Positions 13,814 through 31,631 of a stretch of 42,411 bases of DNA are shown here, in pieces. The stretch covers positions 84,396-126,806 of the forward strand of contig LQBH01000002.1 of NCBI GenBank assembly GCA_002030015.1, read 5' to 3'. Made by a program: the position numbers and the translations under genes. Position 1 is the first letter of the stretch, and each line of letters opens with the position of its first letter. Under the pieces are notes generated by a model, which worked only from the letters and a program-made list of their open reading frames with translations, was not told the DNA's origin and did not search any database. This DNA comes from a delta proteobacterium MLS_D. GTDB taxonomy: Bacteria > Desulfobacterota > Syntrophia > Syntrophales > UBA2210.

Positions 13814-13903
13814 GTGCGAAACAGATCGGTGGTAGCGGTACTTGCTGAAGTAGTAGAGGTACTCGTCGTAGTACCCTCGGGGACTGCCGCTCGACCGCTC
13901 TGA
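13814..13903 (+). CDS. Valine-rich leader peptide of ilvB1 attenuator
   Basis: This is a 29-residue open frame from GTG at 13814 to TGA at 13901-13903. Residues 6-20 read VVAVLAEVVEVLVVV, with nine valines and two leucines in fifteen codons. A GGGAG ribosome binding site (13799-13803) lies about ten bases upstream. It sits between a promoter and two intrinsic terminators, directly ahead of acetolactate synthase. This is the layout of the E. coli ilvB (IvbL) leader, where ribosome stalling at scarce Val-tRNA permits readthrough. By analogy its translation, not the peptide, is regulatory. The codons GTA and GTC at the end of the run lie inside an RNA hairpin (13856-13878). No isoleucine codons are present. 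Confidence 0.85.
   Translation: MRNRSVVAVLAEVVEVLVVVPSGTAARPL
13856..13878 (+). promoter_or_regulatory. Hairpin within the Val codons of the leader
   Basis: GAGGTACT (13856-13863) pairs with AGTACCCTC (13870-13878) with one bulged C and a six-base loop. It covers leader codons 15-22. A ribosome stalled on the valine codons would prevent it from forming. It is the likely pause or protector hairpin of the attenuator; this role is inferred. Confidence 0.5.
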
Positions 13904-13921
13904 AACGCACCGAATGGATCG

Positions 13922-13955
13922 AGCCGCGGGCCCCGCAAAGCCCGCGGCTTTTTTT
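13922..13955 (+). terminator. Attenuator terminator 1 upstream of ilvB1
   Basis: AGCCGCGGGC pairs perfectly with GCCCGCGGCT around an eight-base loop, and seven Ts follow (13949-13955). It is a textbook intrinsic terminator located after the leader-peptide stop and before ilvB1, so it must be conditionally read through. Confidence 0.85.
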
Positions 13956-13969
13956 ATCGAAAAAGCCGC
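13944..13969 (+). promoter_or_regulatory. Candidate antiterminator linking the two ilvB1 terminators
   Basis: GCGGCTTTTT (13944-13953, the 3' arm and U-tract of terminator 1) is perfectly complementary to AAAAAGCCGC (13960-13969, the 5' arm of terminator 2), with a six-base loop. Forming it would disrupt both terminators at once. The pairing is visible in the sequence; its regulatory use is inferred. Confidence 0.55.
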
Positions 13970-13996
13970 TTCCCACGGAGAAGGCGGCTTTTTTTT
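13960..13996 (+). terminator. Attenuator terminator 2 upstream of ilvB1
   Basis: AAAAAGCCGC-TTC (13960-13972) pairs with GAAGGCGGCTTTTT (13980-13993) with one bulged base; eight Ts run from 13989 to 13996. It stands 28 bases before the ilvB1 start codon. Confidence 0.75.
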
Positions 13997-14024
13997 ATTA
14001 TTTATTACGGACCAGGAGATGATC

Positions 14025-15701
14025 ATGGAAAGAACAGGTGCTGAAATACTTTTGAACACATTGAGTGAAGAGGGAGTCTCAGAAATTTTCGGGTACCCGG
14101 GGGCGAGTACGCTCGCCATTCACGACTGTATAAACGAAACCGGCATCAGGCACCTTCTTGTCAGGCACGAGCAGGCGGCGGCCCATGCCGCGGATGGATA
14201 CGCCCGCGCGACAGGGAAAGTGGGCGTCTGCATCGCCACGTCCGGACCGGGCGCCACGAACCTCGTAACGGGCATCGCGACCGCCTATATGGATTCAACA
14301 CCGATGATCGCATTGACGGGACAGGTCACGACAGGCCTGCTGGGGAGCGACGCTTTCCAGGAAACTGACATCATCGGCATCACCATGCCCATCACGAAGC
14401 ACAGCTTTCTTGTCCAGGATGTCCGGGACATGGCTTCCACGGTGCGCGAGGCCATAAACATCGCCACAAGCGGTCGTCCCGGGCCCGTGGTTATCGACTT
14501 GCCCCGTGACGTTCTGGCCGCGCGCTGCAATGACGACGAAGAGGGCGGCGGGGGCTTTCTGGAACAGCAGGAAATCCATTTCGGCGAGGAAGAACTGCGC
14601 CGCCTGAAGCAGATCGCCCGTCTCCTGAATGAATCGGAACGACCCGTCCTGCTTGTCGGTGGAGGAGTCAAGCTTTCGCAGGCCTTTACGGAACTTGCCG
14701 ACGTTATACAAAAGGGAAATATCCCTTTCGTGACCACCATGATGGGCATCGGGTCGGTGTATACGCCCAACGGGTTCAACCTGGGGCTCATCGGCACTCA
14801 CGGCACGGACCTGGCAAACCGCATAGTGCACCAGTCGGATTTCATTCTTGCCGTGGGAGCGAGATTCAGCGATCGGACCACCTCCGTTATCGAAGAGTTC
14901 GCGCCGCTGGCAACCATCGCCCAGATCGATGTCGATCCCACATCAATCGGGAAAAACATCAAGACGGATATTTCCGTCGTCAGCGATATCCGGGTTGCCC
15001 TGCAGGAATTGCTCGGTCTGGTGACCGAAAAAAAGCGGGAAGACTGGATTGATCGCATAGACAGGGAACGCGAACGTATCGCAAAAGAAGGAAGTGACGA
15101 TGGATGCGGCCCCGCCGGCGAGTGCATCCGGATGGTGCAGGAATGCATGCCCGAAAAAACCATTGCCGTCACCGACGTCGGGTTGAACCAGATATGGGCG
15201 ATCCGCAGCTGGAAAGTGAAGATACCCCGCGGGTTGATAACTCCGGGAGGCCTGGGAACCATGGGTTTCAGCGTCCCCGCTTCCATGGGCGCCAGGATAG
15301 GCGCCATCGACCACGAGGTGGTCGTCTTTACCGGTGACGGGGGATTCTTCATGAACATTCAGGAACTGGCGACTATTGGTTTCTACAATATCCCCGTCAA
15401 GATCGTCGTGTTCAACAACGGCAACCTGGGAATGATCAGGCAGATACAGCATCATTTTTACAATTCGCGGTACCGCGACAGCAGGCTTTCCGATCTGGTT
15501 GATATTACCGAGATAGCAAAAGGATTTGGTATACCGTCGGAAAAGGTTGCCGCCGAAGATCCCCGGAAAGGCATTGAAAAACTGTGCGGTTCCGAGGGCC
15601 CCTTCCTCCTGGAAGTTGTCGTGGACGAGAATAATTACGTCTACCCCATCATTCCTCCGGGAAAATCGAATGTGGAAATGATCTACGGCCGGTCGGAGTA
15701 A
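14025..15701 (+). CDS. ilvB: Acetolactate synthase, catalytic subunit (isozyme 1)
   Basis: This thiamine-diphosphate enzyme makes 2-acetolactate or 2-aceto-2-hydroxybutyrate, the first common step of Val, Leu and Ile synthesis. The catalytic glutamate is in LLVRHEQAAAHAADGYARATG, the central FAD-type domain has VLLVGGGVK, and the ThDP motif runs from TGDGGFFMN to VFNNGNLGM. The frame is open from 13914, but I placed the start at the ATG 14025, six bases after AGGAG (14014-14018); MERTGAEILLNTL is the normal N-terminus. That gives 558 residues, typical. It is controlled by the attenuator just upstream and is followed by its own small subunit. It is one of two divergent large subunits in the window. 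Confidence 0.95.
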   Translation: MERTGAEILLNTLSEEGVSEIFGYPGASTLAIHDCINETGIRHLLVRHEQAAAHAADGYARATGKVGVCIATSGPGATNLVTGIATAYMDSTPMIALTGQVTTGLLGSDAFQETDIIGITMPITKHSFLVQDVRDMASTVREAINIATSGRPGPVVIDLPRDVLAARCNDDEEGGGGFLEQQEIHFGEEELRRLKQIARLLNESERPVLLVGGGVKLSQAFTELADVIQKGNIPFVTTMMGIGSVYTPNGFNLGLIGTHGTDLANRIVHQSDFILAVGARFSDRTTSVIEEFAPLATIAQIDVDPTSIGKNIKTDISVVSDIRVALQELLGLVTEKKREDWIDRIDRERERIAKEGSDDGCGPAGECIRMVQECMPEKTIAVTDVGLNQIWAIRSWKVKIPRGLITPGGLGTMGFSVPASMGARIGAIDHEVVVFTGDGGFFMNIQELATIGFYNIPVKIVVFNNGNLGMIRQIQHHFYNSRYRDSRLSDLVDITEIAKGFGIPSEKVAAEDPRKGIEKLCGSEGPFLLEVVVDENNYVYPIIPPGKSNVEMIYGRSE

Positions 15702-15772: not shown

Positions 15773-16264
15773 GTGAAAAGCGAAGTGAAAGAACATGTCA
15801 TTTCAATGCTCGTCAATAACAGGCCCGGCGTTCTGGCGCGTGTGGCCGGTGTGTTCGGAAGACTCGGCTACAATATCGAAAGCCTTTGCGTTGCCGAAAC
15901 GATTTCTTCCAAGGTATCCCGTATCACGTCGGTGAGCAAGGCCGATCCGGCTTTCACGGAAAAGGTCAAAAAGCAGTTGAACCGCCTTGTGGACGTGATT
16001 TCTGTTGCCGAGCTTGAAGACGATACCTCGGCGAAGCGGGAGATGATGCTCATCGGCATTACGATTGACGAGAAAAATCGTCCTGAACTTTCACGGGCGA
16101 TTACCATGTTCGGATGCACGGTTATCTCCATGAAGGATTCGTACTGTATTCTGCAGGTCGTGGGGAACAGGGGAGACGTGGAAACGGTGCTTAATTTTCT
16201 CACCCCCCTGGGCGTAAAGGACATCGCCCGGACCGGCGCCGTTGCGCTGGAGAGCGGGGCCTGA
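15773..16264 (+). CDS. ilvN: Acetolactate synthase, regulatory subunit (isozyme 1)
   Basis: This small subunit activates the catalytic subunit and usually confers feedback inhibition by valine. It has an N-terminal ACT domain (HVISMLVNNRPGVLARVAGVFGRLGYNIES, residues ~6-75) and the C-terminal IlvN domain (AKREMMLIGI). The 163-residue length is typical. A GTG at 15773 with AGGAG upstream is the start. It is 71 bases downstream of ilvB1 and ends the first unit; a second promoter and leader follow. Whether it pairs only with isozyme 1 is not known. Confidence 0.93.
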   Translation: MKSEVKEHVISMLVNNRPGVLARVAGVFGRLGYNIESLCVAETISSKVSRITSVSKADPAFTEKVKKQLNRLVDVISVAELEDDTSAKREMMLIGITIDEKNRPELSRAITMFGCTVISMKDSYCILQVVGNRGDVETVLNFLTPLGVKDIARTGAVALESGA

Positions 16265-16329: not shown

Positions 16330-16358
16330 TTGACAGGGTGAGGTTCACCTGCTAGACA
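16330..16358 (+). promoter_or_regulatory. Promoter of the ilvB2 leader transcript
   Basis: TTGACA (16330-16335) and TAGACA (16353-16358) are separated by exactly 17 bases. It lies 65 bases after ilvN1 and 40 bases before the second leader peptide, giving ilvB2N2CD a promoter of their own. Confidence 0.65.
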
Positions 16359-16398
16359 GGGCACGTTACATGATTCGAGATGCGCGAGGTTCATTGCC

Positions 16399-16479
16399 GT
16401 GGTCGTTGAGAACACAATAATAATTATCGGCGTAATTATTATTTCCTCCGCTTACCGGGAGGGCCGGGCGATGGTCTGA
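16399..16479 (+). CDS. Isoleucine-rich leader peptide of ilvB2 attenuator
   Basis: This is a 26-residue frame from GTG at 16399 to TGA at 16477-16479. After a VVE-type start it reads TIIIIGVIIIS: seven isoleucines and a valine in eleven codons, including two rare ATA codons. GAGGT at 16386-16390 is an eight-base-spaced ribosome binding site. A promoter lies upstream and a strong terminator 18 bases after the stop, directly before acetolactate synthase 2. This matches amino-acid attenuation, here tuned to isoleucine supply. The Ile codons themselves form a perfect hairpin (16416-16443). The frame is open further upstream, but no better start codon is present. Confidence 0.83.
   Translation: MVVENTIIIIGVIIISSAYREGRAMV
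16416..16443 (+). promoter_or_regulatory. 11-bp hairpin formed by the Ile codons
   Basis: AATAATAATTA (16416-16426) is the perfect reverse complement of TAATTATTATT (16433-16443), with a six-base loop. Both arms consist of the leader's isoleucine codons, so a stalled ribosome would directly block the structure. A second small hairpin (CCTCC 16445-16449 with GGAGG 16458-16462) follows. GGCCGG (16462-16467) can pair with CCGGCT (16509-16514) in the terminator stem-loop as a possible antiterminator core. Confidence 0.5.
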
Positions 16480-16497
16480 TCTTTGGACATAGAAGAT

Positions 16498-16532
16498 AAA
16501 AACCGCTGCCGGCTCTTCGGCAGCGGTTTTTT
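16498..16532 (+). terminator. Attenuator terminator upstream of ilvB2
   Basis: AAAAACCGCTGCCG (16498-16511) pairs perfectly with CGGCAGCGGTTTTT (16518-16531) around a six-base loop, and the T-run continues to 16532. It lies between the Ile-rich leader and ilvB2, so it must be conditional. Confidence 0.85.
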
Positions 16533-16655
16533 ATTTTCGACGGCATGCGCGGCAGGCGGCATCACCGTCGAAACGCCGTGTGCCCAAGGGAGGGAACGAT
16601 TCTCATGCGGGCGCGACAATATCAATGAAGTTACAGATAGTGAGGAGGTATAATT

Positions 16656-18359
16656 GTGGAACTTAACGGTGCTCAAATTCTGGTTCGAACGCTGATGGAA
16701 GAAGGGGTGGATACGATTTTCGGTTACCCCGGTGGTTCGGTGCTCGACATTTACGACCAGTTGTTCCAGTCGCCGATACGTCATATTCTCGCGCGGCATG
16801 AACAGGGGGTGACTCACGCCGCTGACGGTTACGCGCGGGCGTCGGGCAAGACCGGGGTCTGTATCGTCACCTCGGGACCGGGGGCGACGAACACGATAAC
16901 GGGAATTACCACGGCCTTCATGGACTCTATTCCCATGGTTATCTTGACGGGGCAGGTTCCCACTCAATTCATCGGCACCGACGCCTTCCAGGAAGCCGAC
17001 ATCATCGGTATTACCCGTCCCTGTACGAAACACAATTTCCTGGTCAGAAGAGTTGACGAACTGGCCAGAACCATCCGCGAGGCCTTCTATATTGCCTCCT
17101 CCGGCCGGCCGGGTCCCGTGCTTGTCGACCTCCCCAAGGATGTCATGCAGGCCAGGATGGAATACCAGGACGTTCCCGCAAAGAGACAGGCCAGAAAGGA
17201 ACCGGTATTCCTGCCCGATACGGCTGACCTGGAGCAAACGGTGGCCATGCTTAAGGAAGCAAAGAACCCTGTTATTCTTGTGGGAGGCGGCGTTCTTCGA
17301 GGTCGGGCTTCCGAAGAACTTCGCGAGTTCGTCCGCAAGGTAAAAATGCCCGTGGCCTCCACTCTCATGGGTCTGGGTTCGTTTCCCGCTGACGACCCTC
17401 TCTGGCTCGGCATGGTCGGCATGCACGGCATGTATTACGCCAACATGGCCGTGAGCAATTGCGATCTTCTGGTCACCCTGGGTGTGCGTTTTTCCGACCG
17501 CGTGACGGGGAAACTGTCGACCTTCGCTCCCCGGGCGAAAATCATTCAGGTCGACGTGGACGCCACTTCCATAAACAAGAACGTCCTGGTACACCTCCCC
17601 ATCGTGAGCGACTGCAAGTCCGCCCTTGTTCAACTGAATACCATGCTGGGCAACAACGGTCTGGAAGATCTCAGGGAATCCCGCAGGCACTGGCTCGACC
17701 AGATCGAAAAGTGGCGGGTCGAGGGCGCGCTGACTTACACCCGGGGCGAGCTCATAAAACCTCAGATGGTTATCGAAACGCTGAACCGGCTGACCGGGGG
17801 GAACGCCATCATCGCCACGGAAGTGGGGCAGAACCAGATGTGGACCGCCCAATTTTACCGGTTTAATGAACCGAATACCTTTCTCACATCGGGAGGACTC
17901 GGTACCATGGGATACGGATTTCCCGCCGCGATCGGCGCCCAGGTCGCCTTTCCCGACCGGCTGGTTGTGGACATCGCGGGCGACGGCAGTATCCAGATGA
18001 ATATTCAGGAGCTTGCCACGGCGGTGAAACACAACCTTCCCGTGAAGATCGTCATTCTCAACAACGGGTATCTGGGAATGGTTCGGCAGTGGCAGGAACT
18101 GTTTTATGAAAAACGTTATTCACATACCAATATCAGCGGCCAGGTCCCGGATTTCGTCAAGCTTGCAGAGGCCTACGGCGCGCTGGGTTTGCGAACGGCC
18201 GACCCCGACGAGGTGGAATCCGTTCTGAAAAAGGGAATAGAAGCGTCCGGACCGGTTATTATGGATTTCCTCGTTGAACCGGAAGAGAAGGTCTATCCCA
18301 TGGTCAATCCCGGCGCCGCCCTGACCGAAATGCAGTTGGGACGAGAAACGGGTCTGTAG
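16656..18359 (+). CDS. ilvB: Acetolactate synthase, catalytic subunit (isozyme 2)
   Basis: This is a second ThDP-dependent acetohydroxyacid synthase large subunit, 567 residues. MELNGAQILVRTLMEEGVDTIFGYPGG is the canonical start; the catalytic glutamate is in ILARHEQGVTHAADGYARASG, and GDGSIQMN through LNNGYLGMVRQWQ is the ThDP site, with the LGMVRQWQ sequence typical of anabolic AHAS. The start is GTG 16656, seven bases after GAGGAGG (16642-16648). It is more like the standard bacterial IlvB/IlvI than isozyme 1, which has LGMIRQIQ instead. It is placed after the Ile-rich leader and upstream of ilvN2, ilvC and ilvD, so it is probably the main biosynthetic enzyme. Confidence 0.96.
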   Translation: MELNGAQILVRTLMEEGVDTIFGYPGGSVLDIYDQLFQSPIRHILARHEQGVTHAADGYARASGKTGVCIVTSGPGATNTITGITTAFMDSIPMVILTGQVPTQFIGTDAFQEADIIGITRPCTKHNFLVRRVDELARTIREAFYIASSGRPGPVLVDLPKDVMQARMEYQDVPAKRQARKEPVFLPDTADLEQTVAMLKEAKNPVILVGGGVLRGRASEELREFVRKVKMPVASTLMGLGSFPADDPLWLGMVGMHGMYYANMAVSNCDLLVTLGVRFSDRVTGKLSTFAPRAKIIQVDVDATSINKNVLVHLPIVSDCKSALVQLNTMLGNNGLEDLRESRRHWLDQIEKWRVEGALTYTRGELIKPQMVIETLNRLTGGNAIIATEVGQNQMWTAQFYRFNEPNTFLTSGGLGTMGYGFPAAIGAQVAFPDRLVVDIAGDGSIQMNIQELATAVKHNLPVKIVILNNGYLGMVRQWQELFYEKRYSHTNISGQVPDFVKLAEAYGALGLRTADPDEVESVLKKGIEASGPVIMDFLVEPEEKVYPMVNPGAALTEMQLGRETGL

Positions 18360-18423: not shown

Positions 18424-18897
18424 ATGAATGTTGATAATCACACTATTTCACTTCTGGTAAAAAACAAGCCGGACGTTCTGGCCCGTATATCGGGTCTATT
18501 GAGCGCCAAGGGGTTCAACATAGAAAACATCAGCGCCAACGTGACCATGAATCCCGACATTACGAAAATAACCATGGTCGCCAAGGGCGACACGGCAACG
18601 ATCGTCAAGATTGAAAAAGAGATGAAAAAACTTATCGATGTAGTCGACGTATTGCGCGTCAAGAGCAAAATCGCCATACAGAGAGAAATGGCACTGGTGC
18701 GCGTCAAAATCGATCGTAAGACCCGGGATGATGTCATAAAGTCTCTGGATCCCCTGCAGTGTCGTGTTCTCGACGAGTCTTCCGACCGCCTGGTGCTTGA
18801 AATGACAGGTGAAACGGCAGAAATCGACCAGGCGTTGGTCTCGCTGGAAGCGCTTGGTATGGAGGACATGAGTCGGTCGGGCGTCGTGGTTTTATAA
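18424..18897 (+). CDS. ilvN: Acetolactate synthase, regulatory subunit (isozyme 2)
   Basis: This is a small ACT-domain subunit of 157 residues. The ACT domain reads HTISLLVKNKPDVLARISGLLSAKGFNIE and the second domain begins near AIQREMALVRVK. It is clearly divergent from the first small subunit (15773-16264), consistent with two dedicated pairs. AAAGGA precedes the ATG at 18424 by nine bases. The gap to ilvC is 32 bases, indicating co-transcription. Confidence 0.93.
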   Translation: MNVDNHTISLLVKNKPDVLARISGLLSAKGFNIENISANVTMNPDITKITMVAKGDTATIVKIEKEMKKLIDVVDVLRVKSKIAIQREMALVRVKIDRKTRDDVIKSLDPLQCRVLDESSDRLVLEMTGETAEIDQALVSLEALGMEDMSRSGVVVL

Positions 18898-18929
18898 GCA
18901 GCAACAAACAACAACAAGGAGATGAAACA

Positions 18930-19982
18930 ATGGCGGATATTACAATTGGAGGAGTCACTGAAAAGATCGTGACGGCTGAAGAATTTACCATGGAGAAGGC
19001 CCGCGAAGTCCTGAAGGACGAAACAATAGCCGTTCTGGGCTATGGTTCGCAGGGGCCGGGCCAGGCCTTGAACCTGCTGGACAACGGGTTCAAGGTTATT
19101 GTGGGGCAGCGGAAAAGCAAGGCCTGGGACAAAGCGGTTGAAGACGGGTTCGTCCCCGGCGAGACCCTCTTTCCCATCGAGGAAGCGGCGCGTCGGGGCA
19201 CCATCGTCATGTTCCTCCTTTCGGACGCGGGGCAGAAGGCCGTGTGGCCGACCATAAAGCCCTACATGACGGAGGGGAAGGCACTCTACTTTTCACATGG
19301 TTTCCCCATTACCTACAGGGAACAGACCGGTGTCATTCCCCCGGAAAATATCGATGTTATCATGGTGGCGCCCAAGGGTTCGGGGCTGACGGTGCGGCGG
19401 AACTTTCTGGATGGAAGCGGTATCAATTCCAGTATCGCCGTTTTCCAGGACTACACGGGGCGGGCCTACGACCGTACCTGCGCCATCGGCATCGCCATCG
19501 GTTCGGGCTATCTTTTCCCGACGACCTTCGAAAATGAAGTTTTCAGCGACCTCACGGGCGAGCGAGGCGTGCTTATGGGTTGCCTGGCGGGCGTGATGGA
19601 GGCGCAGTATGAATGTCTGCGCAAGAACGGGCATGATCCCAGCGAGGCGTTCAACGAGACCGTGGAGGAACTCACCCAGAGTCTCATCCGCCTTGTGGGT
19701 GAAAACGGCATGGACTGGATGTACGCCAATTGCAGCACCACGGCCCAGCGGGGCGCTCTCGACTGGAAGGGAAGGTTCCGTGAGGCTGTCGCGCCGCTTT
19801 TCGACGAGCTCTATGAAAGCGTCAAGTCCGGCAAGGAGACGGAAATCGTACTGCGCGTGAACAGCGCTCCCGACTACCGCGAGCGGCTGGAGGAGGAGCT
19901 GTCGGCCATGAGAAACATGGAGATGTGGCAGGCGGGCGCCGTGTTGCGCGAGTTGCGCCCGGAAAGGCGTTCCAGGAAATAA
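18930..19982 (+). CDS. ilvC: Ketol-acid reductoisomerase
   Basis: This enzyme converts acetolactate or acetohydroxybutyrate to the dihydroxy acid with NADPH and Mg2+, the second step of Val and Ile synthesis. The nucleotide-binding loop is GYGSQGPGQALNLLDNG. Metal and substrate residues are in SDLTGERGVLMG and in the CSTTAQRGALDW segment. At 350 residues it fits class I. The sequence differs from the usual GYGSQGHAHA form of proteobacterial enzymes. From memory it resembles the Bacteroidetes and fungal Ilv5 type (GSGYLFPTTFE, NGHDPSEAFNETVEE, SAPDYRERLE), suggesting a transferred or alternative lineage. An AAGGAGATGA ribosome binding site precedes the ATG. Confidence 0.95.
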   Translation: MADITIGGVTEKIVTAEEFTMEKAREVLKDETIAVLGYGSQGPGQALNLLDNGFKVIVGQRKSKAWDKAVEDGFVPGETLFPIEEAARRGTIVMFLLSDAGQKAVWPTIKPYMTEGKALYFSHGFPITYREQTGVIPPENIDVIMVAPKGSGLTVRRNFLDGSGINSSIAVFQDYTGRAYDRTCAIGIAIGSGYLFPTTFENEVFSDLTGERGVLMGCLAGVMEAQYECLRKNGHDPSEAFNETVEELTQSLIRLVGENGMDWMYANCSTTAQRGALDWKGRFREAVAPLFDELYESVKSGKETEIVLRVNSAPDYRERLEEELSAMRNMEMWQAGAVLRELRPERRSRK

Positions 19983-20044
19983 TAATATTTTTTTCGTGAT
20001 ATTTCGGGCATTGCCGGCCCGGGCTTTCGGAAAGGAATTGAGCC

Positions 20045-21712
20045 ATGAGAAGTGATTCGATGAAAAAGGGACTTGAGCGTGCGCCGCACCGTTCGCTCTT
20101 CAAGGCAATGGGATACACCGACGAAGAATTGTCGAGACCGCTCATAGGTGTGGTAAATTCCGCCAATGAAATCATTCCGGGACACGTTCATCTCTCGATC
20201 ATTGCCGAGGATGTGAAGGCCGGTATACGAGCGGCGGGTGGAACACCCGTCGCGTTTCCCGTTATCGGTGTCTGCGACGGTATTGCCATGGGGCATGCCG
20301 GCATGAAATATTCCCTGGCCAGCAGGGAACTCATTGCCGATTCGATCGAAATTATGGCGACGGCTCATCCTTTTGACGGAATGGTCATGGTCACCAACTG
20401 CGACAAAATCGTACCGGGCATGCTCATGGCGGCATTGCGCCTCAATATTCCCACCGTCGTTGTCAGCGGCGGTCCCATGATGGCGGGCAAATACGAAGGT
20501 GAAGCGGCGGACCTTATCAGCGTGTTTGAAGGTGTGGGGCGCGTCAAGGCGCACTCGCTGACCAAAAAAGGCCTGAAAGCGCTGGAGGACAGCGCCTGTC
20601 CCGGATACGGTTCCTGTTCCGGCATGTTCACGGCGAATTCCATGAACTGTGTCACCGAGGCCCTCGGCCTCGGGCTCCCCGGCAACGGGACCATTCCCGC
20701 CGTAAACGCCGCCAGGAGGAGACTGGCAAAAGAAGCGGGAATGCGGGTCATGACCCTGGTAAAACAGGATCTGAAACCCCGTGACATCGCGACCCTCGAG
20801 GCCTTCAAAAACGCCATCGCCGTGGATATGGCGCTTGGTTGCTCCACCAACACGGTGTTGCACATTCCCGCCGTCGCGCACGAAGCGGGGATCAACCTCG
20901 ATCTGGACATCTTCAATTCGATCAGCTCGAAAACGCCCAACATCTGCCGCCTGAGCCCCGCGGGCGAGCACCATGTGGAAGACCTGTACGAAGCGGGAGG
21001 AATCCAGGCTGTGATGAAAGAGATATCCGCTCTGGGCGTTATAAGCACCGATCTCCCGACAGTGACGGGAAAGACCGTGGGTGAAAATTTCAAGAACGCC
21101 GCCGTGAAGAATCGAGACGTCATTCGGCCGGTGAACGATCCTTACGGGACGGAAGGTGGAATCGCCATTCTTCGCGGGAACCTGGCGCCCGACGGCGCGG
21201 TGGTCAAACAGTCCGCCGTGGCGCCCGACATGATGGTGAATGAAGGTCGGGCGCGGGTTTTCGATTCAGAGGACGAGGCCATTGATGCTATTCTCAACGG
21301 TCATGTTGAGCCGGGGGACGTGGTGGTCATCCGTTACGAAGGTCCGAAGGGAGGTCCGGGCATGCGGGAAATGCTGTCCCCCACCTCGGCCATTGTCGGA
21401 ATGGGACTGGATACGTCGGTGACGCTTCTCACGGACGGGCGTTTCAGCGGCGGAACCCGCGGCGCCGCCATCGGCCATATTTCACCCGAAGCCGCCGAGG
21501 GCGGTCCCATCGCCCTCGTAAAGGAAGGCGATACAATCGCCATCAATATACCGGGCAAGACAATAACCCTGAAAATCACCGACCGGGAAATGGAGCGAAG
21601 AAGGAAGGCCTTTAAGCCGAGAAAACCGGCGATCACCTCCGGATACCTCGCGCGCTACGCGAGTATGGTCACATCCGCCAGCACGGGCGCCGTTTTTCGG
21701 GACGATGAATAG
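20045..21712 (+). CDS. ilvD: Dihydroxy-acid dehydratase
   Basis: This Fe-S dehydratase produces the 2-keto acids of the Val, Leu and Ile pathways in the cytoplasm. Cluster and active-site cysteines appear in [10 protein letters not shown] and [20 protein letters not shown], with GLGLPGNGT following. The C-terminal domain includes [26 protein letters not shown]. The length of 555 is typical. The ATG at 20045 has GGAAAGGAA upstream; an ATG at 20060 is an alternative. It is the last gene of the ilv unit, and no terminator is seen in the 111 bases before the convergent acyl-CoA synthetase. Confidence 0.97.
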
Positions 21713-29763: not shown

Positions 29764-31584
29764 ATGGCAACGCCAAAGGGAGGATATTTCGGAAAAGTGC
29801 TCGAGATTAATCTCTCGAAGCAGTCGACAAAGGTGCGGGAGCTCACCGACGAGGTGGCCCGTAAATACCTGGGCGGTTCGGGCTTGGGCGCCTATTACCT
29901 CGCAACGGAATACGGTGCGGGTAAGGATCCCCTGGCCGAAGACGCCTTTATATTAATCGCTCCCGGTCCTCTGAACGGCACGTATTGCGTGTCCACGCGG
30001 ACCAGTTTCATCAACAAGAGTCCCTACACGGGTCTGCTGAGCCATGCCGAGGTCGGCGCTCACCTGGGGAACGAGATCAAGTGGGCCGGCTGGGACGGTA
30101 TTTACATCACGGGTCGTTCAGTGAAACCCGTCTGGCTTTACATCCAGGATGAGGAAGTGCAGTTCCTTGACGCGGCGAAGGTCTGGGGCAAGGACACCTA
30201 CGAAACAGAAGAGGACTTCAAAAAGGAAGTTGACAACCCCTATGCCCGGACGGCGGTCATCGGACCCGCGGCAGAGAACGGGGTGCCCTATTCGGCCGTT
30301 ATCGTCGAACGATTCCGGGCGGCCGCGCGTACCGGCACGGGCATGGTCATGGGCAACAAGAAGCTGAAGGGCATCGCCGTCAGCGGCACCAAGGCGGTTC
30401 CCGTTGTGGACAACGCGAAGTTCCTGCCCGCCGCCATGGAGGTCAAGGATTACGCCCTGCAGCGGGAAGCCTGGGCGGGAATCAAGCGCTGGGGGACCGG
30501 CGGTCTGCTCGAGTTGAAGCACTGGGCCACGGGCTCTCTCATCACGAAGAACTTCCAGACCACATGGTGGCCGGAAATTTACAACCTCGGCGGCGAGGAA
30601 GCGAACCGAAACTTCTGGCAGCGCCACGTGGCCTGTAACCATTGTCCCGTCCACTGCATGAAATACGGCGTGGTCCGTGACGGGAAATATAAAGGTCTTA
30701 TCGCCGAAGGTCCGGAGTATGAGACAGGCGGTTTGCTGGGAAGCAACCTGGGTATGACTGATTTCGGGTCCATGATGGCCCTCATCGAGGCGGCCGACGC
30801 ATACGGCTTCGACGCCATTTCGCTGGGGGGCTCGCTTGCTTTCGCGACGGAATGTATTGAGAAAGGTGTCCTCGCGGCGTCCGATCTCGATGGCATCAAC
30901 CTGAAGTGGGGCGACGGCGATACCTATCTTGAAATGATCAAGAAGATCGCCTACCAGGAAGGCAAGGCGGGCAAACTCCTTGGCAAGGGAGTTGACGCCA
31001 TGGCGAAGGAAATAGGCAAGGGATCCGAGGCCTGGGCAGTGACCACCAAGGGCAAGGAAATCGCCGCTCACGATCCCCGTGGCGACAAGGGACGCGGTTA
31101 CAGTTACGCCATGGGCACCTGTGGTGGTGATCACCACGAAGGATCGAGTCCCGGCGGCCTGGTTTTGCTGTCTCTGTTCAACTCGCTGGTCATGTGCTCC
31201 TTCGTGGGATTGACCCACACCAAGGAAATTCCCGATTCTCACGTCGCCATGCTCAATCCTCTCTGCGGTTGGGATATGACCGGCGACGAGCTGATGGCGG
31301 TGCCGAAACGCACTCTCACCCTTGAACGCTGTTTCCAGGTTCGCGAGGGAATCAGTGCCAAGGACGACGTGCTTGCCAAGCGGTTCACCTCGGAAAAGCT
31401 CCCCGAAGGACCAAAGCAGGGGGCGATCTGGACTGACGAGGATCAGAAGAAGATGCACGAATCCGTTTACGGTCTTCTGGGCTGGGATAGCAAGGGCGTT
31501 CCGACGGAGAAGACCCTTGAGGGTTACGGACTTGATTTCATGATCGATGACATCAAGGAAGCCCGCAAACAGTATAAACTGTAG
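29764..31584 (+). CDS. Aldehyde:ferredoxin oxidoreductase-family catalytic subunit (tungstopterin)
   Basis: Members reduce or oxidise carboxylic acids/aldehydes, or in the BamB branch dearomatise benzoyl-CoA, with a bis-pyranopterin tungsten cofactor and one [4Fe-4S] cluster. The N-terminal domain has YLGGSGLGAYYLATEYG and APGPLNGTYCVSTRTSF. The cluster motif is CNHCPVHC, and the C-terminal domains have AHDPRGDKGRGYSYAMGTCGGDHHEG and CGWDMTGDE. The length of 606 is normal. The start is ATG 29764, seven bases after GGAAGGAGG. No signal peptide is present; if exported it would ride with the Tat-signal Fe-S partner. A strong terminator follows. The substrate is unknown. Confidence 0.9.
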   Translation: MATPKGGYFGKVLEINLSKQSTKVRELTDEVARKYLGGSGLGAYYLATEYGAGKDPLAEDAFILIAPGPLNGTYCVSTRTSFINKSPYTGLLSHAEVGAHLGNEIKWAGWDGIYITGRSVKPVWLYIQDEEVQFLDAAKVWGKDTYETEEDFKKEVDNPYARTAVIGPAAENGVPYSAVIVERFRAAARTGTGMVMGNKKLKGIAVSGTKAVPVVDNAKFLPAAMEVKDYALQREAWAGIKRWGTGGLLELKHWATGSLITKNFQTTWWPEIYNLGGEEANRNFWQRHVACNHCPVHCMKYGVVRDGKYKGLIAEGPEYETGGLLGSNLGMTDFGSMMALIEAADAYGFDAISLGGSLAFATECIEKGVLAASDLDGINLKWGDGDTYLEMIKKIAYQEGKAGKLLGKGVDAMAKEIGKGSEAWAVTTKGKEIAAHDPRGDKGRGYSYAMGTCGGDHHEGSSPGGLVLLSLFNSLVMCSFVGLTHTKEIPDSHVAMLNPLCGWDMTGDELMAVPKRTLTLERCFQVREGISAKDDVLAKRFTSEKLPEGPKQGAIWTDEDQKKMHESVYGLLGWDSKGVPTEKTLEGYGLDFMIDDIKEARKQYKL

Positions 31585-31596
31585 TTGCGAAACACG

Positions 31597-31631
31597 ACGG
31601 GGCAGGCGGAAACGCCTGCCCCGTTCCTTTT
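31597..31631 (+). terminator. Intrinsic terminator after the AOR catalytic gene
   Basis: ACGGGGCAGGCG pairs perfectly with CGCCTGCCCCGT around a GAAA tetraloop, followed by TTCCTTTT. It separates the two-gene AOR unit from the ten-gene unit downstream. Confidence 0.85.

Follow-up and report, generated by a model that had tools for sequence, protein, structure and literature searches.

The window, as we call the whole 42,411-nucleotide stretch analysed here, belongs to the 2.5 Mb genome of the delta proteobacterium MLS_D; the closest relative with a name is L032, a metagenome bin from the Syntrophales. It contains an ilvBN-ilvBNCD cluster with the gene order ilvB1, ilvN1, Ile leader, ilvB2, ilvN2, ilvC and ilvD. 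The cluster opens with ilvB1 (about 14004-15701), and ilvN1 (15773-16264) precedes the leader. Downstream follow on the forward strand the presumably regulated gene ilvB2, encoding the large subunit of acetolactate synthase (16656-18359; TIGR00118, 815 bits), and ilvN2, ilvC and ilvD (18424-21712; NF008864, TIGR00465, NF002068). The leader ORF, a small unannotated gene between ilvN1 and ilvB2, extends on the forward strand from GTG at 16399 to the TGA stop ending at 16479 and encodes 26 amino acids, VVVENTIIIIGVIIISSAYREGRAMV. Seven of its 26 codons specify Ile (ATA ATA ATT ATC ... ATT ATT ATT), a run for an amino acid made by the operon; seven Ile in ten codons did not occur in fifteen first-order Markov windows. 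ATA, ATT and ATC account for 18, 27 and 55 % of the Ile codons in the neighbouring genes and for two, four and one of the seven in the leader, thus the codon choice differs from that of the neighbours, yet weakly, over only seven codons. A possible Shine-Dalgarno sequence, GCGAGG, can be read at 16384-16389. The promoter upstream (16330-16358, forward strand) is composed of TTGACA (16330-16335), a 17-nt spacer and TAGACA (16353-16358) with an extended TGC, and it is conserved in homologues: a TTGACA-like element followed after 16-18 nt by TAnnn(A/T/G) was present in 45 of 48 homologous leaders, with 1.9 expected from shuffles, and the extended -10 accompanies the TTGACA-type promoter in the conserved leaders.

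The leader is followed by an intrinsic terminator (16498-16535, forward strand) with a stem of 16498-16511 and 16518-16531 and a U run. A preliminary description of this DNA had reported a strong terminator, an Ile-rich leader and a perfect 11-bp stem formed by the Ile codons; on reading the sequence all are present in this place, the inverted repeat being 16416-16426 and 16433-16443 with a loop of six. The leader region as a whole is more stable than dinucleotide shuffles (z -4.6). Three further pairings were recognized on the forward strand. The antiterminator (16462-16514) joins 16462-16476 to 16501-16514. The P2 hairpin (16444-16463), UCCUCC (16444-16449) with GGGAGG (16458-16463), lies directly 3' of the Ile codons and is found in nearly all relatives. 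The protector helix P0 (16391-16474) pairs 16391-16398 with 16467-16474 and encloses the Ile-codon hairpin, P1, and P2 in the minimum free energy fold of a leader transcript that still lacks segment 3. The antiterminator excludes the terminator, and the protector excludes the antiterminator. P2 itself was considered as protector and rejected, because in 39 of 49 sequences P2 and the antiterminator can form together.

Homologues were collected with a covariance model, R1, whose structure omits the codon hairpin and also the antiterminator helix. Nearly all of the 49 homologous loci have an Ile-rich frame, alike in sequence and position, so the conservation of the frame on which the preliminary description had staked its reading is borne out. 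The congeners L004 and L005 both retain the leader frame and the pairings, and in the alignment L005 has an ATG where the window has its GTG start. In relatives, the region upstream of ilvB presents a core III-G/S-III followed by the hairpin, the antiterminator arm and the terminator. The covariation across relatives that had been proposed as a check is likewise found; its counts come from related sequences and are not independent events. In the antiterminator, 86 % of the cells were paired with two-sided changes at seven pairs (48 distinct sequences of the 49-sequence alignment), and registers slid as a control reached at most 64 %. Terminator and P2 covary and were 92 % paired in the 49-sequence alignment, which favours them, as both are part of the search model; P2 had z<-1 in 45 of 49 relatives. 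The antiterminator arm GG(C/A)TGGGTGATGGTTTG is conserved (A3 columns 86-101; window 16464-16479), and the stop codon crosses it in varying frames, for instance GGG TGA (L122-type) or GTG ATG GTT TGA (L113-type). Therefore the RNA and not the tail of the peptide is conserved.

The protector is supported by coevolution. Its 5' arm consists in the window of the bases immediately preceding the start codon, and in relatives of the first codons of the leader or of the bases right before the start codon; the first Ile codons form part of it in L157, L158, L159, L161 and L142. Examples of the pairing are CUCCAUUAU/AUAAUGGAG in L161, CCAUCAUUCAG/CUGGAUGAUGG in L133 and AUCACGC/GCGUGAU in L139. Swapping the arms among 32 non-redundant leaders revealed a preference of about 2 kcal/mol for the own antiterminator arm over those of others (p<0.0002; none of 5000 permutations was as good). 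Against dinucleotide shuffles, 21 of 49 sequences reached p<=0.05 singly and the window p=0.09, and the support for the protector is per sequence weaker than that for the antiterminator.

R1 matches were obtained in 124-126 of 155 Syntrophales genomes (about 80 %); the searches at class and at order level covered an identical set of 155 genomes, and the former is not independent of the latter. Elsewhere in the phylum, matches were limited to about 10 of some 285 genomes, and the weak ones L165, L166 and L168-L170 had neither ilvB nor cimA in the fetched DNA. Within the order, every match with a readable downstream gene in the fetched DNA precedes ilvB or cimA. The genome of the window itself has a second copy of the Ile attenuator, MTNRDFSTIIIIGGIIRGTQPCAAW, upstream of the citramalate synthase gene cimA (L142:1015-1155; G000:C1:92914-93054), and copies before cimA were also present in other Syntrophales genomes. 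The Ile leader thus sits between a promoter-like site and a cognate biosynthetic gene, ilvB or cimA. Citramalate synthase opens an Ile-specific route, hence ilvB and cimA are the targets expected of an Ile sensor. Judged from these positions, a single genome appears to run an Ile regulon of cimA and ilvB2NCD.

Taken together, the locus most probably encodes a ribosome-mediated transcription attenuator which senses charged tRNA-Ile and controls ilvB2-ilvN2-ilvC-ilvD; from sequence evidence we assign this reading a probability of roughly 0.9. It is strongly supported by the frame, the operon context, the conservation of the promoter and the covariation of antiterminator, protector and terminator, and from these we infer that the leader is translated, that the ribosome stalls in it and that the system responds to Ile in vivo. 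The class of element named in the preliminary description, an Ile-sensing attenuator, is upheld on these grounds. Most likely the leader, together with its alternatively folding RNA, turns on the Ile/Val biosynthesis genes when Ile runs low. The transcript would begin about 30 nt before the leader ORF. In the absence of leader translation, 16391-16398 would pair with 16467-16474, sequester the antiterminator arm and lead to the terminator. With plentiful Ile, the ribosome would reach the TGA at 16477-16479 and cover the antiterminator arm, again with termination as the outcome. In Ile shortage, the ribosome would stall within 16417-16443, where the seven Ile codons lie, and disfavour the protector, leaving 16462-16476 free for 16501-16514, so that no terminator would form and the operon would be transcribed. 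P1 and P2 would fold within the loop of the protector and probably draw its two arms together. When the RNA was folded with the ribosome set on one codon after another, the antiterminator stayed available throughout the Ile codons and was lost at about TAC16453; with the ribosome at the stop codon only the terminator formed. Ribosome-free equilibrium folding of the truncated window transcript preferred the antiterminator over the protector, therefore the protector has to prevail through kinetics, as the helix that forms earlier. Together, protector and folding by ribosome position describe, as modelled, a classical three-state attenuator.

The role of the codon hairpin P1 (16416-16443, forward strand; 11-12 bp) is a separate matter of mechanistic detail, attenuation as such being common to both readings. 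Apart from its repeat, the 42 kb hold only two inverted repeats of at least 11 bp with a loop of at most 10; both resemble terminators, and fifteen first-order Markov windows had no such repeat. The stem is outside chance for the window. Of the two others, one is the terminator of the leader, and the second, at 31597-31624, just past an ORF ending at 31584, is probably an ordinary terminator. P1 might be a selected functional element in its own right, a polymerase-pausing hairpin or an essential protector arm, with the position of the ribosome controlling the folding. Besides the perfect stem, its location inside the predicted protector and the completion of the stem by a Leu codon, CTG, in L123 speak for this. 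Hairpin stability was compared after permuting synonymous codons inside each leader: the mid-p was 0.04 for the window and 0.007-0.25 for distinct sequences of its family (sister genera). Over 43 distinct leaders the mean mid-p was 0.41 (z about -2), with the signal coming from the family of the window; outside it the p-values were near uniform, and P1 is missing altogether from many Ile leaders (L153, L157, L158, L159, L161, L142). Moreover, the family sequences are non-independent, the subset was picked after the result was seen, and ATA/ATT runs are inherently self-complementary, thus we regard a selected function of P1 as rather doubtful. As a conserved switch the hairpin is ruled out by the order-wide permutation test. 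P1 is dispensable, since within the order its advantage over permutations is confined to the family of the window; it is real and lineage-restricted, and in the model its role would not go beyond that of an inner protector arm. The preliminary description had the position of the ribosome on the codon hairpin directly control the folding; as a statement on the switch this is not supported, the conserved switch across the order being protector, antiterminator and terminator. That sensing codons and RNA structure are the same bases holds in the ordinary trp-type sense, as Ile codons pair with the antiterminator arm in several relatives.

A second leader, rich in Val, was located before ilvB1 (VRNRSVVAVLAEVVEVLVVVPSGTAARPL, GTG 13814 to TGA 13903), with a TTGACA upstream and a terminator at 13922-13949. 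A second terminator-like hairpin follows at about 13960-13996 (region 13814-13996). Similar Val leaders ending in GTAAR were seen in the relatives L017, L018, L035, L037 and L046, and doubled terminators in L018 and L026. One ilv cluster thus seems to carry two attenuators of different amino acid specificity, Val for ilvBN1 and Ile for ilvB2NCD. Such a tandem would offer a natural system for the division of two acetolactate synthases between valine and isoleucine synthesis. A combined proposal is tentative, though possible: that the sensing codons in the family of the window were chosen to self-fold inside a multi-branched protector, as stall site and structural arm in one, and that two sensors, one for Val upstream of ilvBN1 and one for Ile upstream of ilvBN2CD, separately control the two synthases. 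Family f12 (L139:1501-1634, L149:267-399) has the same RNA architecture with a mainly Val-coding run, LIVVVSVIVV or IVVVAVVV, an apparent retargeting of the sensor from Ile to Val with the RNA switch kept; such a codon change on conserved RNA would show how attenuators may be retargeted. Desulfobacterales-type relatives (L040, L043, L038, L050, L055, L067, L077) have different, Ile/Leu-mixed leaders with terminators upstream of ilvB, e.g., MFGLFIISLILIIGVLVGLIIACEAHRGLIMA in L043, a further attenuator type.

A strong terminator 234 nt past the ilvN1 stop could also be an ordinary terminator after ilvBN1, combined with an internal ilvB2 promoter and a fortuitous Ile-rich ORF. However, frame, Ile richness, antiterminator and promoter-to-ORF position are conserved order-wide and recur before cimA, which makes this explanation highly improbable. 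Still less probable is a riboswitch or T-box reading Ile or tRNA-Ile directly: although such genes are under T-box control in other phyla, the whole window had no match to Rfam 15 at gathering score and none to the T-box covariance model, weak matches included, and what is conserved is a stretch of coding sequence made up of Ile codons.

The Ile attenuator has to be seen as classical leader-peptide attenuation, a known mechanism, and its lineage-specific RNA family has no entry in Rfam. The Rfam amino acid leaders are elements of the same kind, and their scores here are at chance level: Phe_leader (RF01859) gave 20.2 bits on the Ile leader and Thr_leader (RF00506) 20.1 bits near the Val leader, both with a gathering score of 55, and membership was rejected. 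Among the accessible papers, our literature search revealed no earlier account for Syntrophales or for cimA; the main comparative studies of proteobacterial attenuators may contain one. The order-wide family in Syntrophales, apparently undescribed, provides an RNA model, a short gene missing from the annotation and a putative defined Ile regulon (cimA, ilvB2NCD). The leaders of E. coli ilvGMEDA and ilvBN have a short ORF rich in branched-chain codons and mutually exclusive protector, antiterminator and terminator before acetolactate synthase genes. The Syntrophales leader resembles them in the short codon-rich ORF, the three exclusive helices and the acetolactate synthase target. Both E. coli operons are listed among the known attenuators (PMC1183508). 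The uORF-dependent attenuation before ilvBN(C) by the Corynebacterium ilvBNC attenuator and the ilvB-II motif is a further likeness, in a different phylum (PMC10272879, PMC11857589). Compared with E. coli ilv, the Syntrophales leader differs in sequence and architecture, with a run of Ile codons alone, flanking a Gly/Ser codon at its centre, in place of mixed branched-chain codons and an extra P2 hairpin following the control codons, and it is also used before cimA.
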